NCBI GenBank assembly: GCA_004020875.1 | Contig: SAPZ01000007.1 | Coordinates: forward strand, 217,728-281,727 | Length of the DNA stretch: 64,000 nt | From: Mesorhizobium sp. | GTDB lineage: Bacteria > Pseudomonadota > Alphaproteobacteria > Rhizobiales > Rhizobiaceae | Direction: 5' to 3' | Position numbers and translations under genes: made by a program | The notes under the pieces: model-generated | What the model was told of the DNA's origin: nothing | The model's database searches: none | Seen by the model: the letters and a program-made list of their open reading frames with translations, nothing else | Part shown: one piece after another, positions 1,991 to 64,000 of the stretch | Layout of the letters: the number at the start of each line of letters is the position of its first letter | Position numbering within the stretch: the stretch's first letter is position 1

Positions 1991-2485
1991 CTACCTGATT
2001 GCCTCACGCAGATCGGCGAGAGAGATCACCAGCGTCATGGGATCGAGGGGCGAGGGGTCGAATCCCAGCGCCGTGTAATAGCTTCGCGCTTCGTCGGAGA
2101 CGGCGTGAGCCAGGATGCCGCGGATGCCGAGCGAACCTGCCGCATTCATCACTCTGCGTGCTGCATCCTGGACGAGCACCCTGCCGATTCCCTGCCGCTG
2201 AACGGAAATGTCGATTGCGAGGCGGGCAAGAATTGCCACCGGGATCGGACCGGGCATGGTGCGCCGGAACCGGCCCGGCACACGGCTGGCAATGACGCCG
2301 CCCGAAGCGAGCGCGTAGTAGGCGACAACCTTGTCGTCCTCGCAGGCCACGAAGGTACGTGTCGCGCCACTGTCCTGGTTGGCGAGCGCTCGACGCTTGA
2401 TCCAGTCATCCGACGCCGCGGCACCGGATGAAAAAGACGAAAAATCGTGGCCATGATCCAGCGGTACGGGTGCCTGCAGCCTCAC
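1991..2485 (-). CDS. GNAT-family acetyltransferase, TacT-type toxin
   Basis: 164 residues of GNAT fold with the acetyl-CoA pyrophosphate loop QRQGIGRVLV in motif A and the C-terminal YYTALGF segment. It lies directly after a DUF1778 gene and begins with GTG inside that gene's stop (4-base overlap), the standard arrangement of TacA-TacT type II toxin-antitoxin pairs. TacT toxins acetylate the amino group of charged tRNAs and block translation; that activity is inferred from family and context. The overlap implies translational coupling so that antitoxin is made first. Confidence 0.82.
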   Translation of the reverse strand: MRLQAPVPLDHGHDFSSFSSGAAASDDWIKRRALANQDSGATRTFVACEDDKVVAYYALASGGVIASRVPGRFRRTMPGPIPVAILARLAIDISVQRQGIGRVLVQDAARRVMNAAGSLGIRGILAHAVSDEARSYYTALGFDPSPLDPMTLVISLADLREAIR

Positions 2486-2772
2486 TTGGCTTCCCAGGGC
2501 AGCGGCGCGTTCATCAGTTTGGACAGTCCCTCGTTCGACTTGGCCGGCGCGTCGAGCAGGACAAGGAACTCGGCATAGGCGTCCGGTGAAGCCTTGATAA
2601 GCGTGCGCTCGAGCAGCGTGTCCTCAGCCATACGCAGGGCGGCGTCGAGGATGAAATCCGTTCGGGTCTTGCCAAGCGTGCGCGCGGCTTCGTCGATCAG
2701 GCCGCGCTCCTCGGGCCTGATGCGCATGTTCAGCGTGGTTCTCCTCGAAGCGTCCGGCGATTCGTGCTTCAT
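2482..2772 (-). CDS. DUF1778 ribbon-helix-helix antitoxin (TacA-like)
   Basis: 96 residues. The N-terminal part (about 12-50) with RTTLNMRIRPEE followed by two helices matches the DUF1778 ribbon-helix-helix DNA-binding domain; the C-terminal tail ending near PLPWEAK would be the toxin-binding segment. It is first in a two-gene operon with the GNAT toxin. Such antitoxins neutralise the acetyltransferase and repress their own promoter. A 17-base inverted repeat overlapping a perfect TATAAT box lies about 20 bases upstream and is the probable operator. Confidence 0.85.
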   Translation of the reverse strand: MKHESPDASRRTTLNMRIRPEERGLIDEAARTLGKTRTDFILDAALRMAEDTLLERTLIKASPDAYAEFLVLLDAPAKSNEGLSKLMNAPLPWEAK

Positions 2773-2792
2773 TGTTTCAGAGTAGTAGCCTG

Positions 2793-2811
2793 TAATGACG
2801 TTGTCATTATA
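2793..2811 (-). promoter_or_regulatory. Toxin-antitoxin operator overlapping a -10 box
   Basis: TAATGAC and GTCATTA form 7-base arms around GTT (2793-2809). On the minus strand the right part reads TATAAT (2811-2806), a perfect -10 element placed to drive the DUF1778 gene whose ATG is at 2772. Repressor binding here would block polymerase. No convincing -35 hexamer is visible. That the RHH antitoxin binds this site is inference. Confidence 0.6.
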
Positions 2812-3140
2812 ATGAGATCAGTTTTAACTGTGGCAGAACGAATGTAGATGTTTCAAAAATGGCGTTCTCTGAACGGTATAGACAAGGTATGTGTGTATGG
2901 CAACTCGCATACTCCAATGAAAGCCTACTAGGGCGACGCAGTCATTACCATATAAATCGGACTGATACGCGTCATATTAGACATTACTGAATTACAATAT
3001 GGCTAAAGCGCCCGATGAGACTCAAGATACATTGCAAGGATAACGGTCGTAATAGAATATTAACTTTTTCGATTAAGGTCTTCAAAAGTGTTTCTGTATA
3101 GTTTGAGCGCGTCACTAACGGGCAACGAGGATATCGCAAA
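2812..3140. other. AT-rich intergenic stretch
   Basis: About 330 bases between the divergent antitoxin and pilin genes. The composition is clearly more AT-rich than either flank, and I see no open frame worth calling. It must carry the promoter of the Flp pilin gene; TATAGT at 3097-3102 is a possible -10 element but has no good -35. The low GC suggests foreign origin or a long regulatory leader. Confidence 0.5.
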
Positions 3141-3332
3141 ATGCTCAAACTGATTACGCGGTTCAAGAATGACGAATCCGGCGCCACGGCTATCGAGTAC
3201 GGCCTGATCGCGGCGCTGATCGCACTGGCAATCATGGTCGGCGCCAGCTCGCTCGGCGGAGCGCTGAACACCAAGTTCAAGCTGATAGCCGACTGCGTCA
3301 AGGACCCCAAAGCCACTGGATGTCCGACATAA
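3141..3332 (+). CDS. Flp/Fap-type class IVb pilin subunit
   Basis: 63-residue Flp family pilin. After a short charged leader, the prepilin peptidase site lies between G and ATAIEYGLIAALIALAIM, giving the invariant Glu at +5 and Tyr at +6 of the mature pilin, followed by one hydrophobic helix. A C-terminal cysteine pair (C53 and C60) could form a disulfide. Flp pilins are the structural subunits of tight-adherence (Tad) pili. No tad/cpa assembly genes are adjacent, so this copy depends on a locus elsewhere. GAGG lies about 10 bases before the ATG, and a strong terminator follows the gene. Confidence 0.92.
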   Translation: MLKLITRFKNDESGATAIEYGLIAALIALAIMVGASSLGGALNTKFKLIADCVKDPKATGCPT

Positions 3333-3364
3333 CTTCTGTCCACGTGTTACGGCACGGGCTTCGG

Positions 3365-3392
3365 GGCCGCCTTCGGGCGGCCTGTCTTTTTT
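3365..3392 (+). terminator. Rho-independent terminator after the Flp pilin gene
   Basis: GGCCGCC and GGCGGCC form a perfect 7-base-pair stem around a TTCG tetraloop, followed by TGTCTTTTTT. It lies about 30 bases after the pilin stop. Confidence 0.85.
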
Positions 3393-3535
3393 GCGGCGTC
3401 GAAAAGTAGCGCGGCGCGACCGCATGGCGTTGGCTGAGTAGGACTGAACCGCAACCGTTCGAATAGGCGTTGCGGATACTCTTCGCTCTCGGAACTCCAG
3501 GATGGCCTGCCATCCGAAGCTCGAAGAGCGAAGGA

Positions 3536-3620
3536 TGGTGCCCAGAAGAGGACTCGAACCTCCACTCCTTGCGGAACACGGACCTGAACCGTGCGCGTCT
3601 ACCAATTCCGCCATCTGGGC
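3536..3620 (-). tRNA. tRNA-Leu (anticodon CAG)
   Basis: The minus strand folds as a class II tRNA. The acceptor stem GCCCAGA pairs with TCTGGGC, the D-loop holds AATTGGTAGACGC, the anticodon stem-loop is CACGG-TTCAGGT-CCGTG with CAG in the centre, a long variable arm follows, and the T-loop reads GGTTCGAGTCC. The discriminator base is A and the CCA end (3538-3536) is encoded. It reads CTG codons, the dominant leucine codon in this GC-rich genome. Confidence 0.96.
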
Positions 3621-3768
3621 TGGTGGGCGCTCATGTAAGCGGGCAAACGATACGTGTCAACGCGCTTTTTTCGTAAGCGCCTACGCCGGATAGGTGAGGC
3701 TCCTGCTTCGCTTCGAGCCGGGACGAGATAATCGCCGAAGCTGACTGCCCCTCATCCGCCTGCCGGCG

Positions 3769-3797
3769 CCTTCTTCCCGTATAGTGACGGGAGAAGG
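3769..3797 (-). terminator. Hairpin downstream of gpmA
   Basis: CCTTCTTCCCGT and ACGGGAGAAGG pair around ATAGTG with one unpaired base in the stem. The hairpin lies just past the gpmA stop. There is no strong T-run on the minus strand, so it could stabilise the mRNA end or be part of an intergenic repeat rather than a true intrinsic terminator. Confidence 0.45.
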
Positions 3798-3807
3798 AAG
3801 CTGCTCC

Positions 3808-4428
3808 TCACCCCTCCAGCACTTCTTTCTTCGCCACGGTGGAATCGGCATTGAGCTTGTAGATGACCGGCACGCCGGTGCCGAGCTCGAGCTTGACGAT
3901 CTCCTCGCCGCTCTTGCCGTCCAGCGCCATGATCAGCGCGCGCAGCGAATTGCCGTGCGCGGCGACCAGCACCGTCTCGCCGCGCAGCACATGCGGCTGC
4001 ACCTCGTGCAGGTAATAGGGCCACACGCGCGCGCCCGTGTCCTTCAGGCTTTCGCCACCTGGCGGCGCGATGTCGTAGGAACGGCGCCAGATATGCACCT
4101 GCTCCTCGCCCCATTTCTTGCGCGCGTCGTCCTTGTTGAGACCGGAGAGGTCGCCATAGTCGCGCTCGTTGAGCGCCTGGTCGCGGATCGTCTTGAGCTC
4201 GCCCTGGCCGACCACGTCGAGGATCAGCTGGCAAGTCTTCTGCGCCCGCTGCAGCGCCGAGGTGTAGGCGATGTCGAATTTCAGGCCGCGCGCCTTGAGC
4301 TTTTCGCCGGCCGCCAGCGCCTCCGCGGTGCCCTGCTCGGTCAGGCCGACATCGCGCCAGCCGGTGAACAGGTTCTTCAGGTTCCATTCGCTCTGGCCGT
4401 GGCGCACGAGCACGAGAGTTCCCGACAT
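3808..4428 (-). CDS. gpmA: 2,3-bisphosphoglycerate-dependent phosphoglycerate mutase
   Basis: 206 residues, the length usual for alphaproteobacterial GpmA. The histidine phosphatase signature [12 protein letters not shown] is at residues 4-15, followed by [11 protein letters not shown] and a second catalytic histidine region [14 protein letters not shown] near the C-terminus. The enzyme interconverts 3- and 2-phosphoglycerate in cytosolic glycolysis and gluconeogenesis. I chose the ATG at 4428 over an in-frame ATG 8 codons upstream because AGAGGAG sits 6 bases before it. It is last in a run with the ABC exporter and dapB genes; the 77-base gap to dapB contains a repeat remnant. Confidence 0.95.
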
Positions 4429-4446
4429 GTCAGCTCCTCTGGGGTT

Positions 4447-4490
4447 GAGCAATTCGAACGGTTTCCGCCCTGAATTGCGTAAGAAGGAAA
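4447..4490. repeat. Degenerate copy of the GAGCAATTCC dispersed repeat
   Basis: GAGCAATTC, CGGTTTCCG and GAATTGCGTAA occur in the same order as in the fuller copies at 8437-8556 and 57283-57382, but the middle is shortened. It fills the dapB-gpmA gap. Confidence 0.55.
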
Positions 4491-4505
4491 TGGTTCAGGC
4501 TCGTG

Positions 4506-5327
4506 TCAGCTCAGGCCGAGCACGTCCCGCATGGAATAAAGTCCGGGCTTCTTGCCGCGCGCCCAAAGTGCCGCCTTGACCGCGCCGCGCGCGAAGATCG
4601 CCCGGTCCTCGGCGTGGTGGGAGAGCGTGATGCGCTCGCCGGTGCCGGCAAGGATCACGCTGTGGTCGCCGACGACGGAGCCGCCGCGCAGCGTGGCGAA
4701 GCCGATCGAGCCTGCCTTGCGCACCCCGGTATGGCCGTCGCGCACCTTGACGCTGTTGCCGGCAAGATCGATGCCGCGTCCCCTGGCCGCCGCCTCGCCG
4801 AGCAGCAGCGCCGTGCCGGACGGCGCATCGACCTTGTGGCGGTGGTGCATTTCCAGAATCTCGATGTCGAAATCCTCCGGGTCGAGCGCCTTCGCGGCCT
4901 GCTCGACCAGCACCGCCAGAAGGTTGACGCCGAGGCTCATATTGCCGGATTTGACGATCGTCGCATGGCGCGCGGCGGCGGCGATCCTGGCATTGTCCTC
5001 GGCCGAGCAGCCGGTGGTGCCGATGACATGGACGATGCGCGCCTGCGCGGCATAGCCGGCGAATTCGACGCTCGCCGCCGGCGCGGTGAAATCGAGCACG
5101 CCGTCGGCCTTGGCGAAGGCCGGCAGCGGATCGTCGACGATCGGCACGTTGATGATGCCGATGCCGGCAAGCTCGCCGGCATCCTTGCCGAGATGGGGGG
5201 AGTCCGGCCGCTCGACCGCGGCGGCGACGCGCGCGCCGGGCATGGTGTGGATGGCGCGGATCAGCGTCTGGCCCATGCGGCCCGCGGCGCCCACCACGAC
5301 CAGGCCCATATCGCCGGCTTCGCTCAT
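4506..5327 (-). CDS. dapB: 4-hydroxy-tetrahydrodipicolinate reductase
   Basis: 273 residues. The N-terminal dinucleotide-binding motif [14 protein letters not shown] is at about 10-23, and the family signature [16 protein letters not shown] with catalytic His-Lys lies near the middle. DapB reduces 4-hydroxy-tetrahydrodipicolinate with NAD(P)H in the diaminopimelate route to lysine and peptidoglycan. Its ATG overlaps the stop of the upstream ABC transporter gene by 4 bases, so translation is coupled; gpmA follows. No functional link among the three genes is obvious beyond co-transcription. Confidence 0.96.
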
Positions 5328-7195
5328 GCGCTTCTCCTGACGGTCTTCTTGGCGCGGCTGCGCGGCGCCGGAGTTTGGCCCGAAGTCTGGCTTGCCTTGG
5401 CGTCGTCGACAAGCCCCAGCCCTTTCTTGCCCTGGATCCGGTGGAAGCGGGCATAGATGCCGTGCGGGTCGGCCATCAGCGTCGCATGCGTGCCTTCCTC
5501 GACCAGCCTGCCCTCTTCCAGCACGATGATATGGTCGGCATTGACCACCGTCGACAGCCGGTGTGCGATCACGATCGTCGTGCGCCCTTCCATGACGTGG
5601 GTCAGCGCCTCCTGGACACGCGCCTCGGCCTCGTTGTCGAGCGCCGAGGTCGCCTCGTCGAGCAGGAGGATCGGCGCCTGGCGCACGATGGCGCGCGCGA
5701 TCGACACGCGCTGGCGCTGGCCGCCGGACAGCGTCGAGCCGCCTTCGCCGACCGGCGTGTCGTAGCCTTGCGGCTGCTGGCGGATGAACTCGTCCGCCGC
5801 CGCCAGCTTCGCCGCCTGCTCGATCTCGGTGTCGGTCGCCGACAGCCGGCCGAAGCGGATGTTGTCGCGGATCGTGCCCTCGAACAGGTAGGGCGCCTGC
5901 GCCACATAGGCGATCGATTGGCGCAGCGAATGCTTGGTCACCTTGGCGATGTCCTGGCCGTCGACCTCGATCGAGCCTTTGTCTACGTCGTAGAAGCGCT
6001 GCAGCAGCGCCACCAGCGTCGACTTGCCGGCGCCCGAGGCGCCGACGATGGCCGTGACCTTGCCGGCCGCGGCGGTGAAGCTCAGGTCCCGCAGCACGGG
6101 CGTGCCGGCGTTGTAGCCGAAGGTCACATTGTTGAAACGCACCTCGCCGGTGGTGATCTTCGCCTCGACCGCGTCGGGCGCGTCGCCCTGCTTCGGCTCG
6201 AGGTCGAGCAGCTCGTAGATCATGCGCGCGTTGACCAGGGCGCGTTCCATGCCGACCTGCGTGCGCGCCAGGCGCCGCGCCGGGTCGTAGGCCAGGATCA
6301 GCGCGGTGATGAAGGAAAACACCGCGCCCGGCGGCTGCCCGAGCACCAGCGCCCGATAGCCGGAATAGGCAAGCACGGCGGTGACGGCGAGGCCGCCCAG
6401 GATTTCGGAAATCGGCGACAGCCGCTCCGCGACGCGGGCGATCTTGTTGTTACGCTGCTCGGCTGTGTCGGCCATGATGCCGATGCGGCGCGCCAGCTCC
6501 CCCTCCAGGGTGAAGGCCTTGACGATGGCGATACCCTGCGTGGCCTCCTGCACGGACCCGTTCAGCCGCGAGTTGATCAGCACGGATTCGCGGTTGATCT
6601 TGCGCAGGCGGCGGGTGATGTAGACGACGGCCCAGATCAGCGGCGGTCCGATCAGCAGCGAGCTCAGCGACAGGACCGGATCCTGGTAGATCATCACGCC
6701 GACAAGCGCGACGAGCGAGACCGCGTCGCGGCTGATGGAGGTTAGCGTGAGCGACAGGAGATCGCGGATGCCGCCGACATTCTCGTTCACCTGAGCCGCC
6801 AGCCGGCCGGAACGGGTCTCGTTGAAGAACTCGACGCCGAGCTTCATCAGATGGTCGAAGCTGCGCTTCTGATAACGGGCGACCAGATTGTTGCCGATCC
6901 TGGCCAGCGCGACCGCCTGGCCGTAGCCGGCGAAGCCGCGCAGCACGGAGGCGCCCATGAAACCGGCGCAGATCCAGACGATCATGTCGCTGCGCCGTTC
7001 GTAGAAGATCTGGTTGATCATCGGCGCCATGATCCACGCGGTGAAGGCGGTGGTGCCGGAAACGACCAGCAGACAGACGACGGCGACCACATAGGTCCAG
7101 CGGTATTCCTTGCCGTTTTCGGCCAGGATGCGGCGCAGCACGGCGCTGACCTCGGCAGGCTGGACCTTCAGTTTGAGGGAAGTTTGAACGGTCAA
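5324..7195 (-). CDS. MsbA-like ABC transporter (fused permease and ATPase)
   Basis: 623 residues. An N-terminal type IV exporter domain with six membrane helices (about 35-335) is followed by a nucleotide-binding domain with Walker [10 protein letters not shown], signature LSGGQRQR, Walker [13 protein letters not shown] and the H-loop [10 protein letters not shown] basic tail rich in Lys and Arg closes the protein. Half-transporters of this type act as homodimers in the inner membrane and export lipids, including lipid A-type molecules, or hydrophobic compounds. The exact substrate cannot be read from sequence. It heads the dapB-gpmA run with a 4-base overlap to dapB. Confidence 0.93.
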
Positions 7196-7325
7196 ATCAG
7201 GAGCGCTTCATGGTTTCCGCGTGTCGGATGGGGCCGCGTTCGGCATCCTCTTAACGCCCTGGCTTCGGCTTGCCTATGGCCAAACTTCGCCGCGGCGGCC
7301 GATCGCCGGCCCGAACCGGGCTCGG

Positions 7326-8345
7326 TCACGCCCGCCAGTGCCGCCCCGCCGTGTTCACGCCGAACAGCGACGGTGTCCTGGCGTAGGCGGCAAGCCCAAG
7401 CAGCGCCGCCAGCGGATGGGTGATGACATAGACCGGCATCTCGCGCATCAGCGCGCTGTGCGGCGCCTTGTCCTCGAAGGCGGCGCGGAAATTGCCCTCC
7501 TTCAGCGCTGGCACGATCTTTTGCGCGATGCCGCCGGTCAGGAAAACGCCGCCTCGGCTCATGAAAACCAGCGCTAGGTCGCCCGCGGTGCGACCGAGAC
7601 AGGTGACGAAGAGCGCCAGCGCTTCCTCGGCCACCGCGTCGGTTTTGGCGAGCGCGGCGCCGGTGACCTCGGCCGGCGTCGTGAAGGGCGTCGGCTTGCC
7701 GTCCGTCCTGGCCACGGCGCGATAGACGTTGACCAGCCCGCGTCCGCACAGGATCTGCTCGCCGGAGATGCGGCCTTCCAGCTTGTCGATATGCGGGAAC
7801 ACCTCGAAGTCGCGCGACGTGCGCGGGCCGATATCCATATGCCCACCCTCGCCTGGCACCGGTATCCAGTGGTCGAGCGCGTAGATCAGCCCAGCGACGC
7901 CAAGACCCGTGCCGGGGCCCAGCACGACGCGGCTCGCATTGGGTTCCGGCGCGCCGCCGCCGATCTTTTCCATATGCTCTTCGCCGAGCGCCACCACGGC
8001 CAGCGCCTGCGCCTCGAAATCGTTGAGCACGACGACCTCGCTCAGGCCCAGATTGGCGATCATCTGCCGGGGTTTCACGACCCAGGGGCAGTTGGTAAGC
8101 GGAATCTCGTCGCCGTCGACCGGTCCGGCAATCGCAAGCACCGCCGAATTCGGCTGGATGGACGAACGGTCGAGCACCGCCGCCTGGATAGCGTCGTCGA
8201 TGGTCTTGAAATTCGCCGTCTGGACGATCTGCGGGTCGGTCGCTTCGGAATTGGCGTCGCGCACGATCGAGAAGCGCGCGTTGGTGCCACCGATGTCGCC
8301 GATCAGGACCGGAAACCGCAGTCCCTTCTCGTCTTCGCCTGCCAT
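7326..8345 (-). CDS. glk: Glucokinase (ROK-unrelated, Glk family)
   Basis: About 339 residues of the bacterial glucokinase family. The phosphate-binding motif [13 protein letters not shown] is near the N-terminus, LNDFEAQA carries the catalytic Asp, and [10 protein letters not shown] forms the second nucleotide loop. A glucose-binding EGGHMDIGP motif follows. The enzyme phosphorylates glucose with ATP in the cytosol. I prefer the ATG at 8345, which has GAGGA 12 bases upstream; an in-frame ATG at 8387 would add 14 basic residues not typical of the family. Single gene; a dispersed repeat separates it from mepA. Confidence 0.93.
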
Positions 8346-8436
8346 GCGCTTGGTCGTCCTCATTGCAGCGCGACTGCGCCGTTTCAATCGATTGACTAGC
8401 GCATGACCCCGGAAAGGGGAAGCCCGCTTGCGCCAT

Positions 8437-28926: not shown

Positions 28927-31422
28927 ATGGCGAGCCTCGAACAATATCACGCCAAGCGCGATTTCAAGAAAACCGCCGAGCCGGCCGGCAAGGTGAAGCA
29001 CGGCAAGCAGGCCGGCGGTATCTTCGTCGTCCAGAAGCATGCCGCCACGCGGCTTCATTACGATTTCCGGCTGGAACATGACGGCGTGCTGTGGAGCTGG
29101 GCGGTGACGCGTGGCCCGAGCCTCGATCCGCATGAGAAGCGGCTTGCCGTGCATGTCGAGGACCATCCGATCGACTATGCGTCTTTCGAGGGCACCATAC
29201 CAAAGGGCCAATATGGCGGCGGCTCGGTCCTGGTCTGGGACGAAGGCAGATGGACACCGGACGGCGATCCGGCCAAGGGCATGAAGAAGGGACATATCGA
29301 TTTCGAGCTCGAAGGCCAAAAGCTCAACGGTCGCTGGCATCTGGTCAGGCTGAGGCCTCGCCCCGGCGAGAAGCGCGACAACTGGCTGCTGATCAAATCC
29401 GACGACGCCGCCGCCCGGCCGGGCGAGGACATTCTGGTGGAGGAGCCGCGTTCGGTCAAATCCGGCCTGACCATCGAAGAAGTTGGCGGGGGCAAGGCCG
29501 CCAAGGGGCACAAACCGAAAGTCTGGCAGTCGAACAGACCTGCCAAAGCCAAGGCCGGCCAGGCCCGGCGGCTCGAATTCATCGAGCCGCAGCTGGCGAC
29601 GCTGGAGAAGGAAGCACCCACCGGCGACGACTGGCTGCATGAAGTGAAATTCGACGGCTACCGCATGCAGGCGCAGATCGAAGGCAGCGAGGTCAGGCTG
29701 CTCACCCGCGCCGGCCTCGACTGGACCGGCAAATTCGAGGGGCCGGTCACCGCTGCGCTGGCCAAACTGAAATGCCGCGACGCCATCATGGACGGCGAGG
29801 TCGTGGTGCTGGCCGACAGCGGCGTGTCGTCGTTCCCGCTGCTGCAGGCGGATCTCTCGGCCCACAGTGCCGACCGCTTCGTCTATTATGTGTTCGATCT
29901 GATGCGCCTCGACGGCGAGGATTTGCGCCGCGAACCGCTGGTCGAGCGCAAGCAGGCGCTGGCTGAGCTGCTCGGCGAGCAGCCCGAGAATTCGGCGCTG
30001 CGCTTCAGCGATCATTTCCACGAGCCCGGCAAGGTCATGCTGCAGCATGTCTGCCGCATGGGTCTCGAAGGCGTGGTGTCGAAGCGCGCCGACGCGCCCT
30101 ATCGCAGCGGGCGGGGGCTCACCTGGATCAAGTCGAAATGCACGCTCCGGCAGGAATTCGTCATCGGCGGCTATCTGCCTTCGGACAAGAGCGGGCGGGG
30201 CGTGCGCTCGCTTCTCGTCGGCTATTATGAAGGCGGCAAGCTCAACTACGCCGGCCGTGTAGGCACCGGCTTTTCCGGCAAGGTGCTGACGGATTTGAAG
30301 AAGAAGCTCGATCGCCTCGAGGCGAAGACATCGCCTTTCTCTGCGGCGGTGCCGAAGGGCAAGGGGCTTACCTTCGTCAAGCCCGAGCTTGTCGGCGAGG
30401 TGGAGTTCCGCAGCTGGACATCCGACCGTATAATCCGCCACGCTTCGTTCCAGGGGCTTCGCGAGGACAAGCCGGCGGAGGAAGTCGTGCAGGAAAAGCC
30501 GATGAAGGCCGAGAGCGAAGCAAAGCCGAGCGCAAAGGCGCCGTCAAAACCCCCGGCCGGAGCGGCGAAGACCTCGATAAAACTCTCGCATCCCGACAAG
30601 CTGTTGTGGCCCGACGAGGAGGTCTCGAAACAGGACCTGCTCGAACACTACGCTTTGGTGTGGCCGCGCATGGAGCAGTTTGTCGTAAACCGGCCGCTGA
30701 GCCTTGTGCGCGCGCCCGACGGCATCCACGGCCAGCGCTTCTTCCAGAAACACGCCTCGCCCGGCATGAGTGACAAGATCGCCCGCATGAAAGATCCGAC
30801 CGATGGCGAGGAGATACTCTACATCAAGGATTTCGACGGGCTGGCGGCGCTGGTCCAGTATGGCGTGGTCGAGGTGCATATCTGGGGCTCGACGATCGAT
30901 GAGCTGGAAAAGCCCGACCAGATCATCTTCGACCTCGATCCGGACGAAGGCATCGATGTCGGCAAAGTGCGTGAAGCGGCGCTGGACATCCACACGCAGC
31001 TCGACGAGCTGTCGCTGCCCAACCTGGTCAAGACCTCGGGTGGCAAGGGCTATCACGTTCTGGTGCCGCTGAAGCCCTCTGCCGAATGGGACGCTGTCAA
31101 GGATTTCGCCCATGATTTCGCTCGCGCGTTGGAGCAGGCCGCGCCCGACCGCTACACGGCGACCTTGTCGAAGAAGGCGCGCACCGGAAGAATCTTCGTC
31201 GACTATCTGCGAAACGGCCGCGGCGCGACCACGGTCGCGCCCTATTCCTCGCGCGCCAAGAAGGGCGCGACGATATCGATGCCGGTGACCTGGCCGGAGA
31301 TCGACAAGGGCCTTGCGCCGAATGCCTTCCCGCTTGGCGATGCTTCCACGCTGGCTCAGCTGAAGAAGGCCGATCCGTGGAAGGAGTTCTTCAAGCTGGG
31401 GAAGGCGTTGAAGCGGAGTTAA
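28927..31422 (+). CDS. ligD: Multifunctional DNA ligase D for end joining
   Basis: 831 residues with domains in the order phosphoesterase (about 10-190, FVVQKHAATRLHYDFRLE), ATP-dependent ligase (about 215-530, adenylation motif EVKFDGYRMQ) and primase-polymerase (about 545-830, IIFDLDPDEGI with the catalytic Asp pair, TSGGKGYHVLVPL). A Lys/Ala/Pro linker separates ligase and polymerase. It processes and seals double-strand breaks with Ku. The two genes form one operon. Confidence 0.96.
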   Translation: MASLEQYHAKRDFKKTAEPAGKVKHGKQAGGIFVVQKHAATRLHYDFRLEHDGVLWSWAVTRGPSLDPHEKRLAVHVEDHPIDYASFEGTIPKGQYGGGSVLVWDEGRWTPDGDPAKGMKKGHIDFELEGQKLNGRWHLVRLRPRPGEKRDNWLLIKSDDAAARPGEDILVEEPRSVKSGLTIEEVGGGKAAKGHKPKVWQSNRPAKAKAGQARRLEFIEPQLATLEKEAPTGDDWLHEVKFDGYRMQAQIEGSEVRLLTRAGLDWTGKFEGPVTAALAKLKCRDAIMDGEVVVLADSGVSSFPLLQADLSAHSADRFVYYVFDLMRLDGEDLRREPLVERKQALAELLGEQPENSALRFSDHFHEPGKVMLQHVCRMGLEGVVSKRADAPYRSGRGLTWIKSKCTLRQEFVIGGYLPSDKSGRGVRSLLVGYYEGGKLNYAGRVGTGFSGKVLTDLKKKLDRLEAKTSPFSAAVPKGKGLTFVKPELVGEVEFRSWTSDRIIRHASFQGLREDKPAEEVVQEKPMKAESEAKPSAKAPSKPPAGAAKTSIKLSHPDKLLWPDEEVSKQDLLEHYALVWPRMEQFVVNRPLSLVRAPDGIHGQRFFQKHASPGMSDKIARMKDPTDGEEILYIKDFDGLAALVQYGVVEVHIWGSTIDELEKPDQIIFDLDPDEGIDVGKVREAALDIHTQLDELSLPNLVKTSGGKGYHVLVPLKPSAEWDAVKDFAHDFARALEQAAPDRYTATLSKKARTGRIFVDYLRNGRGATTVAPYSSRAKKGATISMPVTWPEIDKGLAPNAFPLGDASTLAQLKKADPWKEFFKLGKALKRS

Positions 31423-58511: not shown

Positions 58512-58661
58512 CGTCACGTCATCGAGCCGGTTACCATCCGCGCGCGGAGCATGCCCTAAAGCGGTGGATGAATGTTTAAGCGCATTTGAATGCTTTGTGA
58601 GTGGGATACAGCTAACCCCCGCCGCTTGCCCCTCAACCCCGCCCCTGCTAAAGCGCGCCGC

Positions 58662-60442
<1,781 letters not shown>

Positions 60443-60467
<25 letters not shown>

Positions 60468-62551
60468 TTCGGAAATTCTTCATTGATCCAACGACTTATG
60501 ATGTCTTGGTCAATGAAATTGTCGCTGCTCTTCATGATTGCGCTGTACTGCTCGTAGTTAAGATTCTCATCGGATGAGATATCGAGAGAAACGGCTGTCG
60601 GAAAAGGAACGCCGCTCTCTTCAAAAGACTGATAGTCTCGGGAGAAGAACCACATCGGAAGGCGGCCGCATAATATGCTATAGTCAAGACTCGCAACTTT
60701 CATCTCGACTGCGATATCTTGAAGAGCCATCAGGACTTGGGGGAGCGTAAATTCTGCTGCTCGTAGGAAGTTCAGGCCATCATCGATTTCGATCTGAAAT
60801 TTCAACGGGTCCGCCGATCGACTCAGCTCTTCCAAAAACTCCCTTATGGATGATGCGGATCGAAGTCTGGTGGCGTAGAAGGCTGCCTGCCGTCCAGATC
60901 TGATATTGTGCTTGGAGAAATCCAAGTGCCTCCAAATCAGGTCAAAGGTCGCTTCCATCTCATCAAACGACCCCTGGCCGCTCCACGCCACCAAAGGATC
61001 CTGGCTCCTATCGGCCAGTTCCTCGGCAAGATTATTCAAACCATCAATCCCATACCTTGCCCAGCGCCGAAGCAGGTCAGGCGACAAACTGCTTCGTCTA
61101 AGCAGGCTGTCACGCCTCCTCCCGGCGCTGGGTCCGAGAACGTCCACCGGCATACTCGCGATTATTTCGTCCGGAGCATTGTCAAAGCCGTTAAAAAGCG
61201 GAATCTCAACTTCTAGGTCCTCACCGAGGGGGGCGTCTCCAAACAGGAAAACCTTTCCAATAAAATGCTGAAACATTCGGCCAGCTCGACCTTTGATATT
61301 GTCAAAAGTAAATCTATCAAGTTTGTCGGTGCTAATATAATTGTCGTATATAATTACATTCTTTGCCTTCGTATTGACCCCTTCTATCATGGACGACGTA
61401 CAGAGTATGTTATCGATAAGCCCGTCGTTGAAAAGAGCGATTTGATATTGAGCCAAGGCTCTTGGTATTCGTCCGTGGTGTATGCCGACGCCATGTTCAA
61501 GGCAGTCGGCTAGTATCCACTGGGAATGATAATTTTGACGAACCCACTCCGCGAGCTCCAATGCGTGCTTCCGTCCCTTTAATTTCGACGCACGAATGGC
61601 TTCGATACCGCATTTGTAGGTCGAGCGCGGGGACCGCAGGTAAACGAGGGTTTGTTGGCTCTTGACGGCATCCAGAACATTCAACAGTCGATCTGTCTTA
61701 GACTCACCTTTGTCGAGGTGAACGCGCTCTATATCAACTGCAACGGGGGAAAAGTCCGATTTCAAAAAAGGCAGAGATGTCGCGCCACTTTCTTGGTCAT
61801 TCACTGAGGATATTGATGGGCCAAGAAGATAAACCTGTCTAGCCCGCTTTGAGTAGGTTGACATAACATTATTGAGTGAGGCGGAACGTTCATCACCTCG
61901 TTTCAAATCGAGTTTATAAAACTCATCGATTATGAAAAGGTCGACCTCCCCGATGTCCTCTCTCTGCTCGATGCGTTCTTGCGTTCCCAAAAAAATGACT
62001 CGATCGTGCGCGCGTATCTCCGTCCCTTTTGTAATTATCTGATACTCGCGAAAAGCTGGCTTAATCCGTCGTCTATATTCGTCGAGAAGCGCCAAAGTGG
62101 GCACCACAATGACCACAACAAGTGGATGGCGCATGCGAATCGTTACGTCGACCAACAGGCTCTTTCCAAAGCTGGTGGGTGCAGACAGTATAAGTGAATT
62201 GCCCTTGAGCAGGTAACCTAGAGCGCCAACCTGTGCCTTATGGAAGATGATATTCGGGAAATCGGGCAGACTCATGCAATTGCGAACAAGACTATTCGCC
62301 CCCTCGGCCTTGGAGTCTATATAGGGATACAATCCTGCGAACCGGAGTACGTCGTCTATCATATCGCTCGAGCCGTCGAGCGAACGAGAGATATGGTCTC
62401 GTCTCGCAACCAGTCGCACAATCAGATCGAGAGCGTCGGCCTGTGCCGGGGAATTGTGCCAAAACCTGTGGGCAAAGTCGATTAAGTCAAACGCATCCGA
62501 GCCTGTGATTGCATCTGACTGCAGAAGGGATCGCGCCTCGTTGAGATTCAT
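60443..62551 (-). CDS. hamB: Hachiman-type SF2 helicase HamB
   Basis: 702 residues from the ATG at 62551, which overlaps the hamA stop by 4 bases (ATGA); an ATG 9 codons upstream is less likely. SF2 helicase motifs are clear: motif [10 protein letters not shown] (about 123-131), Ia VVPTLAL, motif [10 protein letters not shown] (DEFY, about 207-214), motif [11 protein letters not shown] and motif [13 protein letters not shown] long C-terminal domain of about 250 residues follows. With a DUF1837 nuclease upstream this is the HamA-HamB pair, in which the helicase senses DNA and releases the nuclease. GC content is well below the genome average, so it was probably acquired. Confidence 0.88.
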
Positions 62552-63297
62552 GCGAAGGCGCTCAGCTTCGTAGCCCAAACACCATCGAATGTATCTTTGT
62601 TATTAAGCGGCACATACAGGAAAACGAAATCTAGATTATGCCCATGAGCGGCTTGTACCTTGGAGGCAATTTCGGCAAGTTCGACAGTTACGGAATTTAG
62701 ATAGTCGGTGGGGAGCTCGCCTACGGTGGTAATTTTCGTATCCGACGCAATGAAGACCGGGACGACCATCCGTGAAATTATTTCATCAAGATTAGTATCC
62801 TCGTGGAACAACCACTGCAGTTTGTCAAAGTGCGGGCTAGATCGCGATATTTTCGGTCCAATAAGGGACTTGCGCTCGGTAAGTATTCCACTGTCGATAT
62901 GATCGTTAAGGCTCGCGATAGCTTTCTGGATCGCGGTTGACCGTTTCGAGAAGAATTTCGACTCACCCAGCCACAGCTCCAATTCGCCTGATTCGTCCAC
63001 CCGAATGTGGACTATATCGAAGCCGGTCACAGCATCTCGGCTTCGCATCTTGTAACGAAGTCGTTTCACCAACTGCTCCGTGTGGAAGTCACGACTCAGA
63101 ATCTTATGGGCTAAAAGTTCTCCGATTTCTCCACCGGAAGATGGGTTATTGGGATTAGTGAAAAATGGAATCGATTTTTCCAAGGTCGAGTAGGGAGATA
63201 GAACGCTAAGGTCGGCGATCTCTTCCTCGGTTAATACGAATTCCGGTAAACTATCCAGAATGAGCTTGACCAATTTCTTGGCTCTCCATTTGGACAT
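62548..63297 (-). CDS. hamA: Hachiman-type DUF1837 nuclease HamA
   Basis: 249 residues of the DUF1837 (HamA C-terminal) family. SSGGEIGELLAHKIL (54-68), GFDIVHIRVDESGELELWLG (92-111) and ESKFF (112-116) give a PD-(D/E)xK-like nuclease core with Asp94, Glu112 and Lys114. HamA is held inactive by HamB and degrades DNA once phage attack is sensed. Low GC like hamB. Only about 38 bases separate its ATG from the left end of an IS3 element, so its natural promoter region may be interrupted. Confidence 0.88.
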   Translation of the reverse strand: MSKWRAKKLVKLILDSLPEFVLTEEEIADLSVLSPYSTLEKSIPFFTNPNNPSSGGEIGELLAHKILSRDFHTEQLVKRLRYKMRSRDAVTGFDIVHIRVDESGELELWLGESKFFSKRSTAIQKAIASLNDHIDSGILTERKSLIGPKISRSSPHFDKLQWLFHEDTNLDEIISRMVVPVFIASDTKITTVGELPTDYLNSVTVELAEIASKVQAAHGHNLDFVFLYVPLNNKDTFDGVWATKLSAFA

Positions 63298-63398
63298 CTC
63301 GTAACCAATACAGCATGCAACCGAGGGCGGCGTCTGACCTTGCCCCTGCGATCTAATCCGGTTTGAAGTTCGTTCTGGCCCATCGAGAGGACCAGGAC

Positions 63399-63665
63399 AT
63401 GAAGCGCAGCCGCTTCTCTGAAGAGCAGATCATCGGAATTTTGAAGGAGCATGAGGCCGGGGTCTCGGTCGCCGATCTGTGTCGCAAGCACGGCGTCAGC
63501 GATGCTTCGATCTACAACTGGAAGGCCCGCTTCGGCGGGATGGATGTCTCCGAGGCTCGGCGACTGAAGGCGCTGGAGGACGAGAACACGCGGCTGAAGC
63601 GGCTTCTGGCGGACGCCATGCTCGACAATGCCGCGTTGAAGGATCTCGTGGGAAAGAAATGGTGA
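63399..63665 (+). CDS. IS3-family transposase OrfA
   Basis: 88 residues: MKRSRFSEEQIIGILKEHEA and DLCRKHGVSDASIYNWKARFG form the helix-turn-helix, followed by a leucine-zipper-like LKALEDENTRLKRLLADAML. It is complete and binds the element ends. OrfB starts 4 codons before its stop in the -1 frame, as usual for IS3 elements. Confidence 0.92.
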   Translation: MKRSRFSEEQIIGILKEHEAGVSVADLCRKHGVSDASIYNWKARFGGMDVSEARRLKALEDENTRLKRLLADAMLDNAALKDLVGKKW

Positions 63666-64000
63666 CGCCCGCGGCGAAGCGGAAAGCTGTCGCTCGCCTG
63701 AAGGAAGGCTTCGGGATGAGCGAACGGCGGGCGTGTAAAGCCATCGGCTGTTGCCGCATGACGGTTCGCTACGAGACCTGCAGGCAGGACGACCGCGAGG
63801 TTCGCGAGCGGATGAAGGCGATCGCGCAGGAGCGTCGCCGGTTCGGCTACCGGCGTCTTCTCGTGATGCTGAGGCGGGAGGGCCTGGTCGTGAACCACAA
63901 GAAGCTGTTCCGGCTCTATCGGGAGGAGAAGCTCGCCGTCGCCGCCGTGGCGGCCGCAAGCGGGCGATCGGGACCAGGGCGCCGATGCTGGTGCCGCTGA
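63659..64000 (+). pseudogene. IS3-family transposase OrfB (partial, frameshifted)
   Basis: Begins MVTPAAKRKAVARLKEGFGM and continues to LFRLYREEKLAV. After about 63940 the expected RRRGGRKRAIGTRAPM is found one base out of frame, so one C seems to be missing in GTC-GCC. The DDE catalytic domain lies beyond the window. Whether the element is active cannot be judged. Confidence 0.8.

Follow-up and report, generated by a model that had tools for sequence, protein, structure and literature searches.

A Hachiman hamA-hamB Pair beside lepA in Mesorhizobium, Cut at the 5' End of hamA by an IS3-Family Element

The hamA-hamB Pair and Its Surroundings

The window examined here, a 64,000-nucleotide stretch of contig SAPZ01000007.1 from a Mesorhizobium sp. 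(assembly GCA_004020875.1), carries the two genes of a Hachiman anti-phage system, hamA and hamB, next to lepA. Both are read from the minus strand. The hamB gene (60443..62551) encodes a Ski2-like SF2 helicase of 702 amino acids (aa) and is free of internal stops; the listed open reading frame (ORF) starts from a TTG at 62578, which would give 711 aa, and the ATG at 62551 is the likelier start. What remains of hamA (62548..63297) codes for 249 aa, counted from its first usable start codon. The genes are adjacent and share four bases, an ATGA at 62548..62551 that, read from the sequence, holds the hamA stop and the hamB start. A preliminary description, made from the letters of the window, had named this overlap and proposed a HamA-HamB pair, suggesting a profile search as the check. 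When this search is run, both proteins match strongly: HamA hits PADLOC HamA1 at 1.5e-60 (profile positions 30-276 of 279) and Pfam PF08878 at 4.5e-37, and HamB hits PADLOC HamB1 at 2.1e-183 and HamB2 at 5.2e-174, together with the Pfam DEAD and Helicase_C domains. The PADLOC HamA1 and HamB1 values exclude a chance match. In NCBIfam, HamA has no match and HamB has weak helicase matches only, the best at 8.5e-11. The proposed identity is thus borne out by PADLOC, by the Pfam profiles, and by the fold matches described below.

The D-E(X)K nuclease residues of HamA, D94, E112, and K114, are all kept. D94 (63016-63018, minus strand) closes the GFD motif at residues 92-94 and is paired with GESK at residues 111-114 (62956..62967, minus strand), and D94, G111, E112, and K114 are invariant in 37/37 aligned sequences, so that the DUF1837 nuclease with GFD and GESK named earlier is indeed present. 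The helicase motifs, described as intact, are likewise all in place on the minus strand: the Walker A GKS at residues 129-131 (62159..62167), within TSFGKS, motif II DEFY at residues 209-212 (61916..61927), within DEFYK, and motif VI GRAGR at residues 421-425 (61277..61291). The first two are invariant in nine of nine diverse HamB relatives, as are G421, R422, G424, and R425 of the third. The preliminary description was also right about a helicase of about 700 residues, a size typical of this subfamily. It correctly read DEFY in the position of DEAH/DExH, but this is no deviation; we rejected DEFY as a sign of divergence because it is invariant in the nine relatives and is the normal motif II of the subfamily. 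DEFYK also occurs in 88 of 88 helicases in the survey described below, for which one of two search patterns included this motif.

On the other side of hamB lies lepA (58662..60467, plus strand), whose 601 codons begin at the ATG of MTTPLDH, with the listed ORF starting at 58590; it forms the left border of a variable site. The two genes converge and overlap by 25 bp (60443..60467), such that the final HamB codons (QSPILSA and the stop) are antisense to lepA. The low GC content noted earlier is confirmed, at 0.475 for hamA and 0.496 for hamB versus 0.64 for the window, and third-position GC is 0.54 and 0.55, respectively, versus 0.92 for lepA. HamB is also rare among congeners: at E 1e-25 it is found in 3 of 146 congeneric genomes, the window genome counted, and 143 are without it, while at E 1e-30 it occurs in 3/385 genomes of the class. 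Five other congeners have weaker, unexamined HamB matches between 1.2e-17 and 2.5e-5. Low GC and rarity, together with the end of congeneric similarity at lepA described below, support the acquired origin that had been claimed. The locus is a genuine Hachiman anti-phage gene pair, acquired and adjoining lepA.

Truncation of hamA by an IS3-Family Element

The pair is not intact, contrary to what the preliminary description had implied. An insertion sequence (IS) starting at 63335 truncates hamA at its 5' end, and the upstream side of the gene is replaced by this IS3-family, ISRle4-like element, of which the left part (63335..64000, plus strand) is present before the contig ends inside it. Its first transposase ORF (63363-63665, plus strand) matches Pfam HTH_Tnp_1 at 2.4e-26. 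Over 95% of a 703-base query, the element shares 97.2% identity with a copy on a Mesorhizobium plasmid, and it is 79.9% identical to an annotated ISRle4-family copy. Within the analysis these IS matches are what points to the genus, a 16S rRNA search of the genome having found nothing. The same ORF also matches PADLOC PDLC02590, which bears the label DrmC, at 3.7e-32, a possible origin of false DISARM calls.

Between the first start codon and the element, at 63298..63334 on the minus strand, 12 in-frame codons of hamA are stranded ahead of any start; no ATG, GTG, or TTG lies in the hamA frame upstream of 63297. This remnant reads ACCIGYEMSKWR and aligns with ACCAGFELQVWR of the HamA of a congener, G451. 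In the HamA alignment, residues precede the invariant W-R in all 36 aligned relatives (36/36), with a near-invariant C and E at -8 and -4 relative to the W, and both of these residues are encoded in the remnant. Judged against the starts listed for two relatives, L123 and L129, the neighboring DNA has lost a further ∼18-25 codons, and the predicted product is short by about 33-38 residues.

To place this length among relatives, we used a survey of HamB partners. A search for related loci with HamA alone found none, and an alignment of nine HamBs was used instead; the survey covers the best 80 of at least 446 relatives obtained with this query, eight others, and the window. It leaves out 23 viral-contig loci, and at L174 the partner was out of reach. 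The window HamA of 249 aa compares with at least 279 aa in 73/73 standalone partners. One might suppose that HamA is naturally short here, starting at 63297, and that the element merely lies upstream of an intact gene, as no in-frame start precedes the ATG at 63297 and the match to the Pfam HamA model begins at model position 1. We consider this very unlikely, given that none of the 73 standalone partners is below 279 aa, that the sole shorter relative seen outside the survey (L022, 226 aa) itself adjoins an IS21 transposase, and that the in-frame codons ahead of this ATG retain the near-invariant C and E and resemble the G451 protein.

The junction could also be an assembly artifact near the contig end, with the real hamA intact, since 666 bases of a multicopy element are present before the contig ends. 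However, the junction lies inside the contig, at a left end of the element, 63335, that is common to a copy on contig C62 of the assembly and to three plasmid copies. In addition, the gene that borders the site on its right in congeners, encoding a 170-aa membrane protein, was not found in the window genome (G000) by a search that found it in 46/61 genomes, and the next conserved block of this genome lies on another contig, C44, which is syntenic to about 7587. Both observations are consistent with a real rearrangement, and we give an artifact hardly any weight. Rather, they suggest that an IS-linked deletion or rearrangement removed the 5' end of hamA together with the membrane-protein gene.

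We looked for the far side of the element among the contigs of the same genome, where its right ends open C50 and C35. C62 and C35 both carry GTCC and probably flank the same copy of the IS. This leaves C50 for the copy in the window, by elimination only and without a matching duplication; C50 may adjoin the window. The missing 5' end of hamA was not recovered by this search for right ends. From the right end of the element, C50 runs, as judged by eye, into an IS256-like transposase. On this contig (L070), that transposase and then two large genes resembling type III restriction-modification, again by eye, occupy 346-1560 and 2123-8383.

Consequences for Function

According to published work on Escherichia coli ECOR31 (PMC12278908), HamB monitors DNA; when it detects damage or 3' ends associated with phage, it switches on the D-ExK nuclease of HamA, and this nuclease then destroys all cellular DNA. 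The ECOR31 complex (PDB 8VX9) is a distant relative: its HamB has 1174 residues compared with about 700 in the window and carries DEGH rather than DEFY, and sequence similarity is very low (HamA E 0.12). In a fold alignment to 8vx9_A, the window HamA starts at chain residue 28 and a full-length relative at residue 1; the counterpart of ECOR31 HamA residues 1-27 is missing in the window hamA. The AlphaFold2 model of full-length relative L129 places strands at 18-23 and 28-33, in blocks with a mean predicted local distance difference test (pLDDT) score of 94-97, and the missing N-terminal segment thus corresponds to a conserved, predicted β hairpin in this relative. The window HamA is modeled at pLDDT 66-86 across its first 60 residues, and it keeps the active-site segment and the HamB-facing helices.

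These data are best explained by the following history. A bacterium, probably a Mesorhizobium, acquired a hamA-hamB module at the variable site directly after lepA. The ISRle4-like element then inserted into the 5' end of hamA, or caused its deletion. By homology to ECOR31, the intact pair would work as a nuclease-helicase complex; with hamB intact and hamA deprived of its native start, its upstream side, and its N-terminal segment, the system would most likely be disabled or strongly impaired. The truncated HamA might instead still be produced, from the ATG at 63297 or through IS-derived transcription, and the pair might defend the cell, perhaps weakly. We regard this as unlikely: the predicted N-terminal hairpin is lost, the adjacent helices are modeled at lower confidence, a consensus scan of 63200-63900 finds no σ70-like promoter, and no ribosome-binding site is obvious by eye ahead of 63297. 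Since a mobile element has cut off the beginning of hamA, the system is probably damaged, and with a HamA of 249 aa cut at 63335 we class the locus as a damaged member of a known system type, Hachiman, for which we infer with good confidence a loss of function. It should not be counted as a working defense system, though both proteins pass Hachiman profiles, and it looks like a natural case of a defense module switched off by an IS.

On the Roseomonas mucosa plasmid pTT14-3 (L022, 2324-4212), the 226-aa HamA stands beside the IS21 transposase and hamB is shortened beside transposase genes; from its sequence, this looks like a second Hachiman pair broken by insertion sequences.

Relation to AbpAB and the HamB Family

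Among solved structures, the window HamB is closest to AbpB (8zue_B, 2.8e-83), with ECOR31 HamB far behind (8vx9_B, 1.3e-6), as would be expected if the locus belonged to the AbpAB branch and not to Hachiman proper. AbpA of E. coli AbpAB (PDB 8ZUE; PMC10732053) has an additional nuclease domain at its N terminus, and its HamA domain is inactive, whereas the window HamA is standalone, 249 aa consisting of the HamA domain only, with the active-site GESK intact. The partner survey separates the two arrangements. Fused AbpA-like partners number 13 (at L163, L168, L171, L181, L186, L188, L196-L198, L014, L018, L020, and L021), and none of them keeps GExK; 72 of 73 standalone partners have GExK, and in the exception, L154, a D replaces the G while ExK is conserved. 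In a quick tree of 88 helicases of at least 600 residues, from which L143 with its 413-aa helicase ORF was left out, a single branch, with support of 99, sets the 13 fused-partner rows apart from the rest. The window HamB lies outside this clade and groups, also with support of 99, with six standalone-partner relatives, mostly named alphaproteobacteria, although its own end branch in this tree is long (1.19 versus a median of 0.24), which could reflect poor sampling or relaxed constraint. With its partner lacking the fused domain and keeping GESK, membership of the AbpAB branch is extremely improbable.

The fused partners fit a history in which the nuclease was replaced once. Tuck et al. called the reason for the inactive HamA domain in AbpA enigmatic, and the loss of GExK in 13/13 fused partners, all on one side of one branch, bears on this question. 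Relatives also occur on plasmids, in 71 records that are all below 60% identity, and in four phage records.

The Variable Site after lepA

The site at which the damaged pair lies is the more interesting part of this locus. In 12 of 12 large congeneric loci, similarity to the window stops at the 3' end of lepA, and none matches beyond the tile at 60300-60499. Mean identity in the lepA tiles is 91-96% per tile in all 12, and the tiles upstream of lepA are each matched in 8-11 of them. Across the genus, lepA was matched in 59 of 61 sampled genomes, the window genome counted, and 52 loci were read from the other 58 (G007, G013, G014, G024, G459, and G462 were left out). The loci used for the site are L053-L062, L072-L074, and L082-L121.

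Both lepA and the membrane-protein gene (at least 70% identity) are present in 42 of these 52 loci, 154-4241 bp apart, four of the borders being partial only. The 38 intervals that remain when these four are excluded measure 197-4240 bp, with a median of 2.4 kb, and 37 of the 42 exceed 1 kb. Their median GC is 0.51 (range 0.48-0.65). The stretch after lepA is therefore a variable site of mostly low-GC cargo across the genus; it is short and easy to locate in congeners, and its cargo differs between most genomes. Near-shared cargo is seen in a few pairs only (L057/L086, L058/L108, L074/L091, L107/L114, and L098/L101), so the loci are not fully independent.

We scanned cargo with PADLOC, which includes generic models (methyltransferase, TIR, ATPase). 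Four of the 42 loci have no ORF of at least 150 aa, and L086, which repeats the cargo of L057, was not scanned; the other 37 were represented by at least one ORF each but not by every ORF. A scan of L098, which has a weak border match, also gave a hit, but this locus is not counted in the 37. At 1e-6, 22 of 50 cargo ORFs match (6, 6, 5, 2, and 3 in batches of 10), two of the 50 ORFs coming from L098, compared with 0 of 10 other window ORFs in the sole control. By locus, the matches in the 37 comprise PD-Lambda-5, LmuB, a methyltransferase, DRT UG13a, PDC-S28, PDC-M57 with a SIR2-type protein, an OLD-like ATPase, a methyltransferase with NsnA/REase, HamAB, a ThsA/LmuA-like SIR2, a SIR2/pAgo-associated protein, a methyltransferase with REase, a further methyltransferase, two near-identical TIR proteins, and an Avs5-like protein. 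Pfam adds SIR2/nSTAND (L058), NACHT (L116), and a Panacea antitoxin domain (L057). With a defense-library match in 16 of 37 scanned loci and none from PADLOC in the other 21, the lepA interval is a compact place to seek new anti-phage systems and to study single-module swaps. L062 has a transposase-like ORF inside an interval of ATPase fragments, as judged by eye.

A similar arrangement of fixed core genes around exchangeable defense modules is described for the core defense hotspots cDHS1 and cDHS2 of Pseudomonas aeruginosa (PMC10250203). Those sites have medians of 26 and 6 kb, respectively, versus 2.4 kb over the 38 clean-border loci here, and the lepA site differs from them in usually holding one to three ORFs and in having lepA as a border. 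No description of a defense hotspot at lepA appears in the paper listings searched, which leave out subscription papers and preprints.

In 3 of the 52 loci, a displaced partial lepA 3' end (121-257 bp) lies downstream of the intact lepA, inside the interval (L072 4194-4328, L073 4538-4794, and L074 8906-9026). In L073, the sequence that directly follows lepA in several other loci comes after the displaced copy. The ancestry of the fragments is mixed: those of L072 and L074 are closer to the lepA of other species than to their own, and that of L073 is about equally close to its own. The displaced copies fit cassettes that arrive joined to a lepA 3' end, but with the ancestry test mixed this model is only suggestive. 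Tentatively, and with somewhat more doubt than belief, we propose that the 3' end of lepA could be a genus-wide landing site for small defense cassettes in Mesorhizobium-like bacteria, with usually a single cassette in each genome. A foreign lepA 3' end, to which the cassette is already joined on arrival, would anchor it by homology and shift the old 3' end downstream without an integrase, and two unrelated Hachiman systems, that of the window among them, would have arrived in this way independently.

Hachiman in Congeners

An intact Hachiman pair is present in one of the 37 scanned loci, that of G451 (L087), and is only 35% identical to that of the window. It shares with the window its place directly after lepA in the same orientation, a standalone HamA with GESK, the ATGA coupling, and low GC, but its HamA has 308 aa including the N-terminal part and the pair is uninterrupted. 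The two HamBs are 34.8% identical and belong to separate supported clades, and the lepA site was thus probably reached twice, the G451 system probably being a separate acquisition. The idea that all congeneric Hachiman systems are located at lepA was rejected, as no match to lepA occurs in the 16 kb retrieved for the third congeneric HamB, that of G478. The G478 system adjoins two short ORFs that, by eye, resemble pieces of a tyrosine recombinase.

Other Features of the Window

Elsewhere in the window, a LigD gene at 28927-31422, with ligase, phosphoesterase, and primase-polymerase domains in Pfam, adjoins a stretch of slightly lower GC. GC also falls to 0.58 in 2001-4000, around a tRNA-Leu (CAG) gene at 3536-3620, which is a possible integration site.
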